The translations under genes and the position numbers were made by a program. DNA of 64,000 nt from Pseudophaeobacter flagellatus (GTDB lineage Bacteria; Pseudomonadota; Alphaproteobacteria; Rhodobacterales; Rhodobacteraceae): the NCBI RefSeq assembly GCF_021228235.1, contig NZ_JAJQRG010000001.1, forward strand, positions 310,001-374,000, read 5' to 3'. The notes below the pieces were generated by a model. The model had not been told where the DNA came from and made no database searches. It saw only the letters and a program-made list of their open reading frames with translations. Each line of letters starts with the position of its first letter. The first letter of the stretch is position 1. Of the stretch, positions 38,388 to 44,948 are shown piece by piece.

Positions 38388-40151
38388 ATGCAAAGATGGG
38401 CAGGGTTGCTGGGGTTCGCTCTGGCGGTGATCGCAATTGGTGGGGCAACATGGGTCTATGGGTACCGGCAGGCGTTGGATTCCCTGGCCGAGCGCAGCGT
38501 TGCTGATCTGGCGCTGGCCTCTGATCGCGTCAGTACACAATTGCAGATATATCAAGAACTTGCGGTATTGATGGCGGATCACCCTGCACTTGAACAGTTG
38601 GACAGCCCTGCGGGGCGTCGCGCGGCACAGCATCTGCTGCGCGGGGTGGCCGACAAGACTGCGGCTTTGGATGTGCTTTATGCTGATGTCGATGGCCGGG
38701 TGCTTACCGCTGCCTCAGGTGTGCTTGGCGAAAACATTGCGGCGGAGGGGTATTTCCGCCGCGCCTTGCAGGGGGCATTGGGCACGGGGGCGGCCGTGCT
38801 GGCGGACAATGGTCAGCGCGCCTATTTTTACGCCGCGCCGGATTTCTCGCCTGAGGGTGGTATCTCTGGTGTGCTGGTGGTTGTTGCTGATGTCGAAGAT
38901 GTCGAACAGACTTGGCGCGGGTCTTTGCCGGCGGTCTTTTTCACCAAGGCAACAGGAGAGGTCTTTATTTCCAACCGGCCAGAGCTGCTGTTTTGGCAAC
39001 AGACGGGGTCTGTTTGGGGCGCGGCAGGCACGGGGGGAACTGGTGGCGTGCTGCGCGATGGCAGCTCTTTGTCCTACCGGGTGTCCACAACTGGTGAACA
39101 TGAAATCTGGCATTTGTCTGAACGGCCCTATCTGCCCCGGCGCGCGCTGCATTTGACGGTGGGTTTGCCGGTGATCGGTTTGACCGGGCAAATCCTGGTT
39201 GATGTTGCCTCGGCCTGGCGGCTGGCGACACTGCAGGCTTTTGCCTTGGCGGCGCTGTGCCTGGCCTTTGGCACCTTTCTCTTTCTGGCGCTCGAACGCC
39301 GTCGCACCCTGGCCAAGGCCAATGCGGTACTGGAAAGCCGGGTTGCGACCCGCACCCGTGCCCTGCAGGCGACAAACAGCCAGTTGCGCCGCGAAGTGAG
39401 CGAGCGCGAGGATGCCGAGGCGGCCCTGAAGAAGGCGCAAGAGGAACTGGTACAGGCGGGCAAGCTGTCGGCCCTGGGGCAGATGTCTGCCGGGATCAGC
39501 CACGAGCTGAACCAGCCCTTGATGGCGATCCAGCAATATGCCGAAAACGGCGATGCCTTTTTGCGGCGTGGCCAGGTGGACCGGGTTGGCGAGAACCTGA
39601 CGCGGATTGCTGGCATGTCGGCGCGCATGGCCCGCATCATCAAAAACCTGCGGGCCTTTTCGCGCAATGAGAACGAGCCCATGGCGCGGGTGGATCTGGT
39701 GCAGGTGATCAATACCGCGGTAGAGTTGACCGCCTCGCGTCTGGAGACGGATGAGGTGGCGCTAAGCTGGCAACCGCCTGACGGCAACGAGCCAATTTAT
39801 GTCTGGGGTGGAGAAGTCCGACTTACCCAGGTTTTTGTTAACCTTATCAATAATTCAGCTGATGCCATGCTGGATCAGAATACGCGGTCCATCAACATCA
39901 CCCTAGAGGCTGGTGATCGGCTTTCGGTGGCGGTGCGCGACATTGGTCCTGGCATCAAGGAACCGGAGAAGATGTTTGATCCGTTCTACTCTACCAAGGT
40001 GGTTAGCAGCTCCGAGGGCATGGGGCTGGGGCTGTCGATTTCCTACGGTCTGGTGCAGAGTTTTGGTGGCAATATCCATGGTAGAAATATGGAACGCGGC
40101 GCGGTCTTTACCGTAGAGCTGGAGCGGTGGAACGAAGGTGGCGCGACATGA
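38388..40151 (+). CDS. dctB: C4-dicarboxylate sensor histidine kinase DctB
   Basis: A 587-residue membrane sensor. TM1 is at about 5-22, TM2 at about 270-298 (FALAALCLAFGTFLFLAL), and the roughly 245-residue periplasmic region between is the size of a double-PAS dCache sensor. A coiled coil (VLESRVATRTRALQ) leads to the H-box SALGQMSAGISHELNQPL with the phosphorylated His near residue 369, then the N-box FVNLINNSADAM and G-boxes DIGPGI and GMGLGLSIS. The stop overlaps dctD by 4 nt. Partner and transporter downstream support dicarboxylate sensing. Confidence 0.93.
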   Translation: MQRWAGLLGFALAVIAIGGATWVYGYRQALDSLAERSVADLALASDRVSTQLQIYQELAVLMADHPALEQLDSPAGRRAAQHLLRGVADKTAALDVLYADVDGRVLTAASGVLGENIAAEGYFRRALQGALGTGAAVLADNGQRAYFYAAPDFSPEGGISGVLVVVADVEDVEQTWRGSLPAVFFTKATGEVFISNRPELLFWQQTGSVWGAAGTGGTGGVLRDGSSLSYRVSTTGEHEIWHLSERPYLPRRALHLTVGLPVIGLTGQILVDVASAWRLATLQAFALAALCLAFGTFLFLALERRRTLAKANAVLESRVATRTRALQATNSQLRREVSEREDAEAALKKAQEELVQAGKLSALGQMSAGISHELNQPLMAIQQYAENGDAFLRRGQVDRVGENLTRIAGMSARMARIIKNLRAFSRNENEPMARVDLVQVINTAVELTASRLETDEVALSWQPPDGNEPIYVWGGEVRLTQVFVNLINNSADAMLDQNTRSINITLEAGDRLSVAVRDIGPGIKEPEKMFDPFYSTKVVSSSEGMGLGLSISYGLVQSFGGNIHGRNMERGAVFTVELERWNEGGAT

Positions 40152-41383
40152 CAACTCGCAAGGTTCTGGTGGTAGATGATGATGCGGCGCTGCGCGAAGC
40201 CCTGGCGCAGACACTCGAACTTAACGATTTGGAGCCCATCACGGCAGGCTCTTTTGTGGCGGCCAAGGATCTGATCACCGCTGAATTTGACGGGGTGGTC
40301 CTGTCGGATATCCGCATGCCGGGGCGGGATGGGTTTTACCTGCTTGATTATGTGCGCGGTACTGATGAGGACCTGCCGGTGATCCTGCTGACTGGCGAGG
40401 GGGATATTCCCATGGCGGTTAAGGCGATGTCGCAGGGGGCCTTTGGTTTTCTGGAAAAACCCTGCGTGACAGCGGACTTGCTTACTGCGCTGCAGCGGGC
40501 GCTCAAGACCCGCCGCCTGGTGTTGGAAAACCGCAGTTTCAAGCAGAAGCTGGAAGAGGGCGACCCGGCGGCACGCATGTTATTTGGGACCTCGCCGCAG
40601 TCAGATGCTTTGCGTGCGCGGGTGCGCAGTGTGGCGCCAACCCTGGCCGAAGTCCTGGTGTCCGGTCCGGCGGGCAGCGGCGTTCCCAAGGTGGCAGAGG
40701 TCATTCACCTGATGTCGCCGCGCGCCCAGGCGCCCTTTGTCAAATCCCCCTCTGCCGGGCTTAGCGTCGCGGATCTGGCTGCACTCTGTCAGCAGGCGGC
40801 AGGTGGCTCGCTGTTCTTGGACGAAGTCTCGGCGCTGTCCGAGGCGCTGCAGTATGCCGTTTTGGAGCGGATCGAACAGGGGGATGGGCCGCGCCTTATT
40901 GTTGGCAGTACCGCCGATCTGGCCGCTCTTGTCGCGGCGGGCAGCTTTGGCGCCGATCTGTATTACCGCCTTGAGGGCATGCGGGTACGCATTCCTTCGC
41001 TGGCTGAACGCCCCGGCGATATCCCTGTTCTGTTCCGTCTTTATGTGGCCCAGGCTGCTGAACAGGCCGGAATAGAGCCGCCGGAAATCAGCCAAGAGCA
41101 TCTCGCCGGGTTGATGGCGCAGGATTGGCCGGGCAATGCGCGATCCTTGATGTCGGCGGCCATGCGCTTTGTGCTGGGCATGCCAGATGAGGTGAGCGCG
41201 GCAACCGATCTTGGTCTGGCCGAGCAGATGGCCCAGGTGGAACGCTCTTTGTTGATTGCGGCCCTGGGACGACAGAACGGCCGGGCCGCCGCAGCAGCAG
41301 AGGCGTTGAAACTGCCGCGCAAAACATTTTATGATAAATTGGCCCGCTACGGCATCCGGCCGGAAGACTACCGGCGGCCGTAA
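40148..41383 (+). CDS. dctD: DctD-type response regulator with degenerate AAA+ domain
   Basis: A 411-residue regulator paired with DctB. The receiver is intact (VVDDD acid pocket, phospho-Asp in VLSDIRMPG, Lys in FLEKPC). The central domain is unusual: Walker A reads SGPAGSGVPK, lacking the GK[ST] lysine position, and the GAFTGA sigma-54 loop is missing, with a deletion of about 50 residues before AGGSLFLDE. The later LYYRLEGMRVRIPSL and the C-terminal Fis-like HTH (NGRAAAAAEALKLPRKTFYDKLARYGI) are kept. It probably binds DNA but cannot hydrolyse ATP or open a sigma-54 promoter. ATG 40148 overlaps the dctB stop. Confidence 0.9.
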   Translation: MTTRKVLVVDDDAALREALAQTLELNDLEPITAGSFVAAKDLITAEFDGVVLSDIRMPGRDGFYLLDYVRGTDEDLPVILLTGEGDIPMAVKAMSQGAFGFLEKPCVTADLLTALQRALKTRRLVLENRSFKQKLEEGDPAARMLFGTSPQSDALRARVRSVAPTLAEVLVSGPAGSGVPKVAEVIHLMSPRAQAPFVKSPSAGLSVADLAALCQQAAGGSLFLDEVSALSEALQYAVLERIEQGDGPRLIVGSTADLAALVAAGSFGADLYYRLEGMRVRIPSLAERPGDIPVLFRLYVAQAAEQAGIEPPEISQEHLAGLMAQDWPGNARSLMSAAMRFVLGMPDEVSAATDLGLAEQMAQVERSLLIAALGRQNGRAAAAAEALKLPRKTFYDKLARYGIRPEDYRRP

Positions 41384-41472: not shown

Positions 41473-41490
41473 TGTGCGGATTTTCGCACA
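41473..41490. promoter_or_regulatory. Palindromic operator 1 upstream of dctP
   Basis: TGTGCGGATTTTCGCACA has perfect 6-bp arms TGTGCG/CGCACA. It is almost identical to the site at 41506-41523; the centres are 33 bp apart, close to three helical turns. Candidate DctD binding site, from position and symmetry. Confidence 0.6.
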
Positions 41491-41505: not shown

Positions 41506-41523
41506 TGTGCGAGATTTCGCACA
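41506..41523. promoter_or_regulatory. Palindromic operator 2 upstream of dctP
   Basis: TGTGCGAGATTTCGCACA, second copy of the palindrome, about 180 bp upstream of the dctP start. Both sites are followed by AACA(C/T)CCCAG, so the duplicated unit is longer than the palindrome itself. Confidence 0.6.
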
Positions 41524-41640
41524 ACATCCCAGCGGCGGGATGTGATGGGGGCGTTTATGTCGATGTAAGTCATTGCAGAAAAATGCAGAAACTTGAAATC
41601 CGCCTAAATTTGAAACAAATCTTGAGTGCCCCCGCACAAC

Positions 41641-41656
41641 TGGCAATTCTATGGCA
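41641..41656 (+). promoter_or_regulatory. Weak sigma-54-like promoter match upstream of dctP
   Basis: TGGCAATTCTATGGCA keeps the GG-N10-GC spacing of -24/-12 promoters, but its -12 box is poor (GGCA instead of TTGC). Its position, about 50 nt before dctP, fits, yet the local DctD lacks the GAFTGA loop. Probably coincidental or a relic. Confidence 0.25.
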
Positions 41657-41703: not shown

Positions 41704-42705
41704 ATGAAATATGTAACTGCTGCTGCCACCGCGATGGCGCTGACCGTAACCGCTGGTGCCGCACAGGCGGCCTGTGATGAGGGCGAGATTGTCGTCAAGT
41801 TCAGCCATGTCACCAACACCGACAAGCACCCCAAGGGGATTGCGGCGTCGTTGCTGGAACAGCGGATCAACGACGAGATGAATGGCACCATGTGCCTAGA
41901 GGTCTATCCCAACTCGACCCTGTATAACGACAACAAGGTGCTGGAAGCCATGTTGCAGGGCGATGTGCAACTGGCCGCGCCTTCGCTGTCCAAGTTCGAA
42001 AAGTTCACCAAAGAATTCCGCCTGTTTGATCTGCCATTCATGTTCAAGAACATCGACGCGGTTGATGAATTCCAGGCCTCGGAAAACGGGCAGGCCCTGC
42101 TTGACAGCATGCAGCGTCGCGGCCTGCAGGGGCTAGCCTATTGGCACAACGGCATGAAGCAGATGTCCGCCAACAAGCCGCTGGTGGCACCTAGCGATGC
42201 CAATGGTCTGAAGTTCCGGGTGCAGTCTTCTGATGTTCTGGTCGCCCAGATGGAAGCCATCGGTGGCAGCCCGCAGAAAATGGCCTTCTCGGAGGTTTAC
42301 GGCGCATTGCAACAGGGGGTTGTGGATGGACAGGAAAACACCTGGTCCAACATCTATGGCAAAAAGTTCTTTGAAGTGCAGGACGGGGTGACCGAAACCA
42401 ACCACGGTATCATCGACTATCTGGTGGTGACCAACGTGGATTGGCTGGAAAGCCTGGAGCCCGCCGTGCGGGAACAGTTTCTCACCATTCTTGGTGAAGT
42501 GACCGCTACCCGCAACGCAGAATCCACACAGGTGAACCAAGAGGCCAAAGAGGCCATTATCGCCGCAGGTGGTGAAGTGCGCAGCCTGGATGCCGACCAG
42601 CGTCAGGCTTGGGTTGAAACCATGATGCCGGTCTGGCAGCAGTTCGCTGGCGACGTTGGTCAGGACAAGATCGACGCAGCACAGGCGATCAACGCCAATC
42701 ACTGA
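41704..42705 (+). CDS. dctP: TRAP dicarboxylate transporter, substrate-binding protein DctP
   Basis: A 333-residue periplasmic binding protein. The signal peptide MKYVTAAATAMALTVTAGAA with an AQA cleavage site is clear. DctP motifs follow: VVKFSHVTNTDKHPKG (near residue 32), GLKFRVQSSDVLVAQMEAIGGSPQ containing the conserved carboxylate-binding Arg near residue 172, and VVDGQENTWSNIY. GGGAGG precedes the start. It delivers C4-dicarboxylates to DctQM. Two palindromes lie upstream and a hairpin downstream. Confidence 0.95.
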   Translation: MKYVTAAATAMALTVTAGAAQAACDEGEIVVKFSHVTNTDKHPKGIAASLLEQRINDEMNGTMCLEVYPNSTLYNDNKVLEAMLQGDVQLAAPSLSKFEKFTKEFRLFDLPFMFKNIDAVDEFQASENGQALLDSMQRRGLQGLAYWHNGMKQMSANKPLVAPSDANGLKFRVQSSDVLVAQMEAIGGSPQKMAFSEVYGALQQGVVDGQENTWSNIYGKKFFEVQDGVTETNHGIIDYLVVTNVDWLESLEPAVREQFLTILGEVTATRNAESTQVNQEAKEAIIAAGGEVRSLDADQRQAWVETMMPVWQQFAGDVGQDKIDAAQAINANH

Positions 42706-42747: not shown

Positions 42748-42849
42748 TTCCGGGGCGCTGATCCAGATGATCTGCGCCCCGAAGTCCAGGTGGGGTGTGG
42801 ATCCGCAGCCTGCGTTTACTCTTTTCTCAAAATCATCGGGGTGACCAAT

Positions 42850-43530
42850 ATGTCGGGGGCAAGAACCGGCCCGTCTGGGTTTATCAACACCCTGGAAGAA
42901 ACGCTGATTGCGCTGCTTCTGGGACTGATGACCGTTATTACATTTGCCAATGTGATCGCGCGTTTCGTCTTTAATTCTAATATTCTGTGGGCCCTAGAGC
43001 TGACGGTATTCCTTTTTGCCTGGTTGGTGCTTCTGGGTGCAGCCTATGCCGTAAAGACCCATGCCCATCTGGGCGTGGATGCCATTGTCAATATTCTAAA
43101 CCCAAGGGTGCGCAGGGTGGTCGGGCTGATTGCTTCCGGCTGCTGTCTGGTGTTTTCGCTGTTGCTGCTCAAGGGTGCCTATGACTACTGGGCGGTTTTT
43201 GCTGATCTGCCGCCGACTTCGGGACGCTGGTTCCCCACCGGGTTTGATTTCAGCGCGCGCTCGCAGAGTTTTTATGAGGTGCAGGATGTGCCAATGGTCG
43301 GGGTCTTCCGTTTTCTGGAGGAATTGATCAACTACGGCGATTCCTATGAGAAGCTGCCAAAGGCGGTGCCCTATGTGGTGCTGCCGCTGTCGATGCTGTT
43401 GCTTGTTTTGCGGTTTGCCCAGGCGGCGCTGCAGATGTGGCGCGGTGAGGCAGACCGGCTGGTGGCCAGCCATGAGGTCGAAGATGAGCTGGACGAAGCC
43501 CGGGCCCGCGCGACCGAGGGAGAAAATTAA
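42850..43530 (+). CDS. dctQ: TRAP transporter small permease DctQ
   Basis: A 226-residue membrane subunit with four predicted helices (about 15-40, 50-72, 90-112 and 178-200). The EETLIALLLGLMTVITFANVIARFVF N-terminus is characteristic of DctQ. A loop of roughly 55 residues (DLPPTSGRWFPTGFDF...) between helices 3 and 4 is longer than in small DctQ proteins but common in dicarboxylate systems. ATG 42850 is preferred over the frame opening at 42790; GTG 42841 is an alternative. It overlaps dctM as TAATG. Confidence 0.92.
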   Translation: MSGARTGPSGFINTLEETLIALLLGLMTVITFANVIARFVFNSNILWALELTVFLFAWLVLLGAAYAVKTHAHLGVDAIVNILNPRVRRVVGLIASGCCLVFSLLLLKGAYDYWAVFADLPPTSGRWFPTGFDFSARSQSFYEVQDVPMVGVFRFLEELINYGDSYEKLPKAVPYVVLPLSMLLLVLRFAQAALQMWRGEADRLVASHEVEDELDEARARATEGEN

Positions 43531-44948
43531 TGGACGTGATTTTCCTGTTTGCCATGGTCATTGGCCTGATGCTGATCGGTGTGCCGATTGCGATCTCTCT
43601 GGGGCTTAGCTCGGTTCTGTTTTTGCTGATCTATTCGGACAGTTCACTGGCGAGCGTCGCCGGCACCCTGTTCGAAGCCTTTGAAGGGCACTTCACCCTG
43701 CTGGCCATTCCGTTTTTCATTCTGGCTTCTACCTTCATGTCCACTGGCGGGGTGGCGCAGCGGATCATTCGCTTTTCCATCGCCTGTGTCGGCCATTTTC
43801 AGGGGGGGCTGGCCATTGCGGGCGTCTTTGCCTGCATGATGTTTGCCGCCCTGTCGGGATCGTCGCCTGCAACTGTTGTGGCCATTGGCTCCATCGTTAT
43901 CGCAGCCATGCGCCAGGCGGGCTATACCAAGGAGTTCGCCGCCGGGGTCATCTGTAATGCCGGCACGCTGGGCATTTTGATCCCGCCGTCGATCGTCATG
44001 GTGGTCTATGCGGCCTCGGTTGATGTTTCGGTTGGTCGGATGTTCCTGGCGGGGATCATTCCGGGGCTTTTGGCTGGTTTGATGCTGATGGTGACGATCT
44101 ATGTGATCGCCCGGATCAAGAACATGCCCAAGGGGCAGTGGGCAGGTTGGGGCGAGGTTGGTGCCTCTTTCCGCGAGGCTTTCTGGGGCTTGTTCCTGAT
44201 CGTGATCATCATGGTCGGCATCTACGGCTATCCCTGGTACTCGGCAGAGCTGGGGCTGTACAAGGAAGCCGCCATCTTTACGCCAACTGAGGCGGCAGCT
44301 GTGGCCTCTGTCTATGCGTTCTTTGTGGCCAGCTTTGTCTATCGCGACATGGGACCATTGGCAGAAACCGAGGGACGGAAGCGGCGTTCTGTGTTGCAGG
44401 CACCGATGGCATTGCTATCGGTCTGGGGGCATAAAGACACCAAGAAGGCGCTGTTTGATGCCGGTAAGCTGACAGTGACGCTGATGTTTGTGATCGCCAA
44501 TGCGCTGATCCTGAAGCATGTGCTGACGGATGAGCAGGTGCCACAACATATCGCCAATGCAATGCTGTCGGCTGGTTTTGGCCCGGTGATGTTTCTGGTG
44601 GTGGTAAATGTGATCTTGCTGATCGGCGGCCAGTTCATGGAACCGTCGGGGCTGTTGGTGATCGTGGCGCCACTGGTGTTTCCGATTGCAATCGAGTTGG
44701 GCATTGACCCTATCCACCTCGGCATCATCATGGTGGTCAATATGGAAATTGGCATGATCACCCCGCCGGTTGGGCTCAACCTCTTTGTGACCTCCGGGGT
44801 TGCGGGCATGCCGATGATGTCGGTGGTGCGGGCGGCTTTGCCCTTCCTCGCGGTGCTCTTCGTGTTCCTGATCATGGTGACATACATTCCCTGGCTGAGC
44901 ACGATGATCCCCAATGCGCTGATGGGGCCTGAGATCATCACCAACTAG
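43530..44948 (+). CDS. dctM: TRAP transporter large permease DctM
   Basis: A 472-residue sodium-coupled permease with about 12 hydrophobic segments. Characteristic motifs: FVLASTF-like region FFILASTFMSTGG, SGSSPATVVAIGSI (first re-entrant loop), GTLGILIPPSIVMVVYA, and the second half MEIGMITPPVGLNLFVTSG. The insertion around residues 240-300 (YRDMGPLAETEGRKRRS) is seen in dicarboxylate-type DctM. Starts on the dctQ stop (TAATG); terminator follows at 44987. Confidence 0.95.
   Translation: MDVIFLFAMVIGLMLIGVPIAISLGLSSVLFLLIYSDSSLASVAGTLFEAFEGHFTLLAIPFFILASTFMSTGGVAQRIIRFSIACVGHFQGGLAIAGVFACMMFAALSGSSPATVVAIGSIVIAAMRQAGYTKEFAAGVICNAGTLGILIPPSIVMVVYAASVDVSVGRMFLAGIIPGLLAGLMLMVTIYVIARIKNMPKGQWAGWGEVGASFREAFWGLFLIVIIMVGIYGYPWYSAELGLYKEAAIFTPTEAAAVASVYAFFVASFVYRDMGPLAETEGRKRRSVLQAPMALLSVWGHKDTKKALFDAGKLTVTLMFVIANALILKHVLTDEQVPQHIANAMLSAGFGPVMFLVVVNVILLIGGQFMEPSGLLVIVAPLVFPIAIELGIDPIHLGIIMVVNMEIGMITPPVGLNLFVTSGVAGMPMMSVVRAALPFLAVLFVFLIMVTYIPWLSTMIPNALMGPEIITN

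Follow-up and report, generated by a model that had tools for sequence, protein, structure and literature searches.

How a DctD-type response regulator can still control its transporter genes after losing the features that serve sigma-54 is the question raised by a locus of the marine bacterium Pseudophaeobacter flagellatus (Rhodobacterales). The locus was studied in a stretch of 64,000 nucleotides (assembly GCF_021228235.1, contig NZ_JAJQRG010000001.1, positions 310,001 to 374,000 of the forward strand), hereafter the window, whose own numbering is used throughout. Its dctD gene follows a dctB-like kinase gene and precedes dctP and the dctQ-like and dctM-like permease open reading frames (ORFs) of a TRAP transporter. 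A first-pass annotation, made from the letters of the window, had described this DctD as ATP-independent, with an intact receiver and helix-turn-helix (HTH) and a dead AAA+ core, and had left open whether it is an activator at a sigma70-type promoter or a repressor. In our analysis the best explanation, with a probability of about 0.7, is that DctD activates sigma70-type transcription as a phosphorylation-controlled switch that needs no ATPase, and that it does so from approximately 140-175 bp upstream.

Short-form DctD, called at matches of at least 53% identity, was present in 102 of the 196 genomes of an order-wide sample. A further 80 named loci, the best 80 of 479 relatives, came from Pseudophaeobacter, Phaeobacter, Leisingera, Ruegeria, Tritonibacter, Roseovarius, Tateyamaria and other genera. 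From these two overlapping sets, with the duplicate window gene removed, we obtained 130 loci encoding 121 distinct proteins, referred to as clade A. The features of the window's protein, with counts from these orthologues, are as follows.

40148-41383, plus strand: dctD, short form, 411 aa (ATG at 40148, stop at 41383).
40154-40501, plus strand: receiver domain (residues 3-118), in which D54, T82 and K104 are unchanged in 121/121.
40664-40687, plus strand: former Walker A, residues 173-180 (GPAGSGVP), lysine replaced by valine; followed by the conserved K181-V-A-E184-V-I-H187.
40784-40789, plus strand: site of the GAFTGA loop deletion (L1, about 19 aa lost), where L213 now adjoins C214; placed by alignment, edge uncertain by a few residues.
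40811-40825, plus strand: Walker B remnant LFLDE, residues 222-226.
40883-40888, plus strand: site of the pre-sensor I loop deletion (L2, about 12 aa lost), at around residue 246; placed by alignment, edge uncertain.
41285-41347, plus strand: Fis-type HTH, residues 380-400, with LPRKTFYDKLAR; profile match and alignment.

The losses in the AAA+ core fall on the parts that serve sigma-54 and ATP. The GAFTGA loop had been reported as deleted, and the alignment bears this out with a gap in all 121 distinct orthologues. The pre-sensor I loop, the second of the sigma-54 loops, is also gone, and in the first arginine finger FRxDL has become FGADL; neither of these losses had been noted before, and the finger is absent in 121/121 clade A proteins. 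The protein had been thought to be about 50 residues short, a figure that proved too high, since alignment with full-length relatives leaves two gaps that together amount to approximately 31 residues (411 aa versus 442 in the relative L135; 431-466 in the full-length set). In Walker A, which reads G173-P-A-G-S-G178-V179-P180, the catalytic lysine is missing, as had been claimed, and its position holds valine; lysine is absent there in 121/121 (I in 92, V in 17, T in 8, N in 2, F and L in 1 each). Realignment restored no lysine to this position, since the near-invariant K181 sits two places downstream, outside it. The former P-loop now forms a conserved motif, GxxGxG[IV]SKxAEVxH, with K181, E184 and H187 each in 120/121 and the serine in 101/121. 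ATP hydrolysis by DctD has thus probably been lost. The retention of the receiver, LFLDE, the YYRL segment and the HTH, also part of the first-pass annotation, was confirmed by Pfam and by alignment: Pfam recognised the receiver (83.7 bits), a degenerate sigma-54 domain, whose best PF00158 stretch covers only 88-167 of 168, the AAA lid and HTH_8. All 121 proteins retain the Arg and Lys of the HTH. The survey that had been suggested as a check therefore found the same losses throughout the distinct Rhodobacterales orthologues.

Median pairwise dN/dS (the ratio of nonsynonymous to synonymous substitution rates) was 0.19 for the receiver, 0.32 for the AAA core, 0.15 for the lid and 0.12 for the HTH, over up to 2790 non-independent pairs with dS of 0.15-1.2. 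Shared by 121/121 distinct orthologues under purifying selection, the losses reflect neither chance nor a single broken gene. An AlphaFold2 model built with 59 clade A proteins gave a predicted local distance difference test score (pLDDT) of 86.5, with 87-96 over the AAA+ core (residues 151-290), and a predicted template modelling score of 0.54, which leaves the domain arrangement unsure. Foldseek matched the model to NtrX, NtrC1, FleQ, VpsR and PspF, and its AAA domain aligned with those of PspF and FleQ over about 224-233 columns at 2.3-3.6 A. The AAA+ fold is therefore predicted to survive the loop losses.

Upstream of dctP we found two palindromes of the form TGTGCG-N6-CGCACA, an AT-rich block and a promoter-like element, in this order.

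41473-41490, plus strand: distal predicted DctD operator, TGTGCGGATTTTCGCACA, a conserved palindrome.
41506-41523, plus strand: proximal predicted DctD operator, TGTGCGAGATTTCGCACA, 33 bp from the distal operator.
41566-41591, plus strand: conserved AT-rich IHF-like block, TAAGTCATTGCAG plus an A-tract, between operators and promoter.
41622-41650, plus strand: predicted sigma70-type promoter, TTGAGT (41622-41627), 17 bp, AATTCT (41645-41650), drawn from conservation; start predicted at about 41657.
41704-42705, plus strand: dctP, TRAP transporter solute-binding protein (TIGR00787 over cut-off), first gene of the presumed target operon dctPQM.

When the operator pattern, with R/Y allowed inside, was searched across the 4.29 Mb genome, these two sites upstream of dctP were the only matches, and a reversed-pattern control gave none. 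dctP lies downstream of dctD in 127 of the 130 clade A loci (118 distinct regions); two of the others had no dctP match (L041, L150) and one ends too early (L093). Two strict sites were present in 95 of the 127 loci, one in 25 and none in 7, as compared to a strict site in 0.08% of shuffled upstream regions. With two mismatches allowed in one site, a tandem pair 31-34 bp apart was found in 118/127.

The position of the promoter element relative to the operators is nearly fixed. An aligned TTG column was present in 99 of 117 distinct promoter regions, with the consensus TTGAGC-N17-TWYnCT and the last -10 T in 98% of the 99 (weighted); the window has the form TTGAGT-N17-AATTCT. The TTG lies 105-108 bp from the centre of the proximal operator in 81 of 97 loci measured, 138-140 bp in 10 and elsewhere in 6; the 10 are as expected for loci in which only the distal site fits the strict pattern, and in tandem pairs the TTG is 137-141 bp from the distal operator. 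An alignment-free count over 87 distinct loci gave the same picture, with 8, 25, 37 and 12 TTGs at offsets 105, 106, 107 and 108 against a median of 1 per offset, and lesser peaks at offset 58 (23, within the AT-rich block) and 125 (14). The distance from TTG to the dctP ATG varies (commonest values -82 to -100), and therefore the operator-promoter distance is the quantity that is held. In the window the two operators are clear of the promoter, at approximately 107 and 139 bp upstream of its -35. By its conservation, the dctP element is thus predicted to be a sigma70 promoter in form.

Sigma-54 appears to have no part in this arrangement. No PF04552 or PF04963 match was found in the host genome (4.29 Mb, 99.99% complete), and controls matched in 4 of 14 genomes (E. 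coli, B. subtilis, Caulobacter and a Bacteroides). Sigma-54 consensus scores upstream of clade A dctP genes equal those of shuffled sequences, without a conserved -24/-12 motif; a sigma-54 promoter there was rejected, as even the best scores are those of shuffles and the higher scorers are scattered. Judged by sequence, DctD thus lacks what defines the sigma-54-dependent enhancer-binding proteins of group I: the GAFTGA loop, the Walker A lysine, the first arginine finger, a -24/-12 promoter and rpoN in the host, and its ATPase falls short of that group although arginine finger 2 is kept in 112/121. That DctD works without sigma-54 in this genome, as the first-pass annotation had implied, is supported by the missing rpoN match together with the loss of both sigma-54 loops. 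Across the 196 genomes, PF04552 matched in 49, of which 42 were counted as rpoN-bearing; the other seven were six weak matches (E above 1e-5) and a fragment that contains a stop. The fragment, a sigma-54 DNA-binding domain with an internal TAG in a short-DctD genome (G103:C54:1297-1632), is possibly an rpoN relic. rpoN was absent from 84 of 102 clade A genomes and from 70 of 94 others (Fisher p 0.22), and given this lack of association we do not claim that rpoN loss caused the short form.

A tree of 68 rows (30 from clade A, 7 from a second group, clade B) placed clade A (support 100/99) as sister to clade B (100/100), joined at 100/99, and their sister in turn was a GAFTGA-bearing protein, L204 of genome G110 (100/98). 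The tree thus points to common descent of the short DctD with canonical DctD. L204 and L242 (genome G227, of the same genus as G110; 81% identical to L204 and outside the tree) make up a sister lineage of two species with intact GAFTGA and P-loop, rpoN and the gene order dctB-dctD-dctP-dctM. Upstream of dctP, both have a pair of operators spaced by 32 bp, and both carry CTGGCACGCATCTTGAA, which fits the sigma-54 consensus at 12/13, with GA instead of the usual GC at -12. Because of the tree and this sister lineage, we infer that clade A arose from a sigma-54-dependent DctD.

Clade B has both loop losses, as in clade A, and retains the P-loop lysine. In its nine proteins (L126-L134) the Walker B Asp and Glu and the sensor II Arg are gone in 9/9 and arginine finger 2 in 7/9. 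The simplest account would be a single loss of both loops, after which the ATPase was broken in two different ways. In these nine Rhodobacterales loci, dctP is divergent from dctBD, and in 6/9 the interval between them holds one or more strict TGCG-N6-CGCA palindromes. A search for clade A outside the host's family, over 385 genomes of the class, gave six matches with E of 1e-74 or lower. Five were in genomes of the host's family, and the sixth was a clade-B-like protein in another family of the class, L247, which was assigned by motifs and stands outside the tree.

The name DctD rests on the receivers of S. meliloti DctD (1l5y) among the PDB sequence matches, the best of which was Brucella NtrX, on gene order and on the tree. 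Synteny with dctB and dctPQM and the DctD-type receiver and HTH likewise indicate membership of the DctD orthologue group. The kinase gene and dctD overlap by 4 nt (ATGA), and the automatic ORF list sets the dctD start at GTG 40127 rather than ATG 40148. The neighbouring genes are the following; from their position and from the usual TRAP gene order, we take the permease ORFs to be dctQ and dctM.

38388-40151, plus strand: dctB-like sensor histidine kinase; kinase domains matched, dctB name by position, no NCBIfam model at cut-off.
42790-44948, plus strand: dctQ-like and dctM-like permease genes, seen as ORFs only.

The direction of regulation can be read from mutants of Ruegeria pomeroyi DSS-3, in which SPO2630 is described as a C4-dicarboxylate transport sensor protein (PMC4809877), and SPO2626 and SPO2628 as dctM and dctP (PMC9870897). 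In a study of an arrayed mutant collection, the optical density (OD) of the SPO2630 mutant was 96.9% lower on fumarate and 81.8% lower on succinate (PMC10130141, Table 1), similar to the dctM mutant (99.1% and 92.6%) and the dctP mutant (96.7% and 75.2%) (PMC10130141). On malate, OD was significant for dctM only, and drawdown was significant for the SPO2630, dctM and dctP mutants (PMC10130141). Fitness changes of SPO2630, dctM and dctQ are reported to share one sign (PMC10041152). The sensor mutant fails like the transporter mutants, and the system therefore acts positively; by analogy with these mutants, the dctB-dctD system activates C4-dicarboxylate uptake.

The losses, the operators, their nearly fixed spacing and the missing rpoN in the host genome are features read directly in the sequences; phosphorylation dependence, binding of DctD to the palindromes, looping, use of sigma70 and independence of ATP are inferred. 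In the mechanism that we propose, DctB would phosphorylate D54 of DctD when C4-dicarboxylates are present, and dimers of phosphorylated DctD would occupy both palindromes ahead of dctP, which are spaced by three helical turns. Bending of the DNA at the IHF-like, AT-rich block would let DctD contact RNA polymerase, and polymerase with a sigma70-type factor would be recruited or stabilised at TTGAGT-N17-AATTCT without ATP hydrolysis. With its motor dead, the AAA+ fold would then provide a rigid framework through which DctD oligomerises or touches the polymerase. We tentatively extend this to the whole clade, at somewhat less than even odds: an ATP-driven sigma-54 remodeller would have become a nucleotide-free, phosphorylation-switched activator that reaches the housekeeping polymerase from approximately 140-175 bp upstream by way of an IHF-type bend and strict helical phasing. 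Its loops would have been lost once and its ATPase then broken in two ways, an order that living lineages from before and after the change would show.

Three other explanations were weighed. ATP might still be bound, through the shifted K181 or backbone contacts, and set oligomerisation in an activator resembling R. capsulatus NtrC, which requires ATP binding and not hydrolysis (PMC10274813). The P-loop glycines 173 and 176 (121/121) and 178 (119/121), K181, Walker B and the sensor II Arg are indeed conserved. However, 109/121 proteins have I or V in place of the lysine, K181 two residues on likely faces another side of the helix, and arginine finger 1 is gone throughout, so that we regard nucleotide gating as unlikely. 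DctD could instead silence dctP, phosphorylated or not, with no activating role, and loss of the motor would suit plain DNA binding. Such a repressor is considerably harder to credit, as the operators lie clear of the promoter, the R. pomeroyi sensor mutant loses rather than gains dicarboxylate growth (PMC10130141) and the predicted -10 is poor, as expected for an activated promoter. Thus, of the two roles first suggested for DctD, activation at a sigma70-type promoter gains from promoter conservation, and repression is disfavoured by operator position and the sensor mutant. Finally, a decaying, pseudogene-like regulator of little function would account for the loss of several catalytic motifs, an AAA core that evolves faster than the other domains and the single internal TGA reported in each of two of the 102 genome hits (G041, G071). 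It is very improbable, however, given dN/dS well below 1 in every domain, conserved operators and spacing, and a reading frame that is uninterrupted in the 130 loci read, which had, however, been selected as open frames.

Several observations weigh against the activator that we favour. The Walker B Asp (118/121) and Glu (116/121), the sensor II Arg (121/121) and arginine finger 2 are mostly kept, which is odd for a wholly dead site. At the promoter, TTG is missing from the aligned column in 18/117 regions. The AT-rich block fits the IHF consensus with a mean of 6.8/9 as compared to 4.4/9 in shuffles (99 loci), a pattern chosen after the block had been seen; the host genome's own block fits at 6/9, and at one T of the consensus just 20% agree. 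The IHF reading is thus a lead, and an IHF alpha gene is present. A sigma-54 score of 10 or 11 of 13 is reached in 8/127 loci, at scattered places, including a 10/13 string at -64 from the window's dctP ATG, and rpoN persists in 18 of the 102 short-form genomes, in keeping with the lack of association given above. The sensor evidence is one mutant from a transposon library, with possible polarity on dctD, and Table 1 of that report has no dctD mutant; the short form itself was seen in L092, a strain labelled R. pomeroyi, and not read from DSS-3. No NCBIfam model reached its cut-off for DctD (best PgtA, 261.9 bits against 650). In the open-access literature, judged by titles and abstract openings, we found no paper on a short DctD, and biochemical data on clade A were not found there.

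If DctD is such an activator, it offers a natural experiment on an enhancer-binding protein after sigma-54, in which the DNA sites and long-distance geometry outlive the motor, and the need of an ATPase for distant activation becomes testable. Many marine Rhodobacterales proteins annotated as sigma-54-dependent are then predicted not to be, which bears on regulon predictions for C4-dicarboxylate uptake.

Other NtrC-type regulators show related changes. Four of them in the host genome (L001-L004) lack GAFTGA and keep the P-loop lysine, and one (L003) has lost Walker B too (LVLEG); two of the four presumably resemble NtrX and NtrC. Four further weak PF00158 matches lie in ORFs of 502-909 aa (L008-L011). 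A full-length DctD-like subfamily (L135, L216, L217, L218 and relatives) from rpoN-less Rhodobacterales and rhizobia has GAFPGA and mostly intact ATPase motifs; L217 adjoins a TAXI-TRAP and L218 a tripartite tricarboxylate transporter. GAFPGA as a decay step after rpoN loss was dropped since the rhizobial relatives carry it too, and the substitution had already been noted (PMC3162934). The DctD proteins L220, L222 and L223, whose genes adjoin dctA-like genes in Sphingomonas, Sphingobium and Paracoccus, have lost GAFTGA and kept the ATPase motifs, with no good sigma-54 promoter seen at these three loci; they are apparently further losses of sigma-54 contact.

Regulators without GAFTGA that act at sigma70 promoters include R. 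capsulatus NtrC (ATP binding, no hydrolysis), VpsR (no ATP) and Caulobacter NtrC (Walker A and B needed) (PMC10274813), and TyrR, DhaR and HupR have also been named as such (PMC3162934). DctD fits this known kind in its domain order and predicted sigma70-type promoter. R. capsulatus NtrC works from tandem distant sites. Like DctD, it is an NtrC-type protein of the Rhodobacterales without GAFTGA, and it is reported to activate through sigma70, as predicted for DctD; it differs in needing ATP binding, and so a working P-loop (PMC10274813), whereas in DctD the pre-sensor I loop is deleted and the P-loop lysine replaced. For this comparison we aligned L004, the NtrC of the window genome, and compared that of R. 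capsulatus by description. R. capsulatus HupR, which activates when unphosphorylated, has a far-upstream site at hupSL, with IHF between this site and the sigma70 promoter. It is named as sigma70-dependent, as predicted for DctD, and has a defective GAFTGA region (PMC3162934). Unlike DctD, HupR controls hydrogenase genes. Vibrio cholerae VpsR senses c-di-GMP and controls biofilm genes. It also lacks GAFTGA, acts at sigma70 promoters and, as proposed for DctD, needs no ATP (PMC10274813), and its structure was among the Foldseek matches; it is not a DctD orthologue. The canonical sigma-54 DctD proteins (Azospirillum L219, Ensifer L221, L204 and L242) share the receiver, the fold and the HTH motif PRKTFYDK or close variants, and L219, L204 and L242 also have a dctB-like gene and GTGCG-N6-CGCAC operators (in L219 one strict site and one with mismatches). 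All four differ from the short DctD in keeping both loops and the P-loop, and, unlike clade A, L219 has a sigma-54-like promoter (11/13), as do L204 and L242. What is new in clade A is that both loops and the P-loop lysine have been lost and that the distant operators stand in a nearly fixed geometry.

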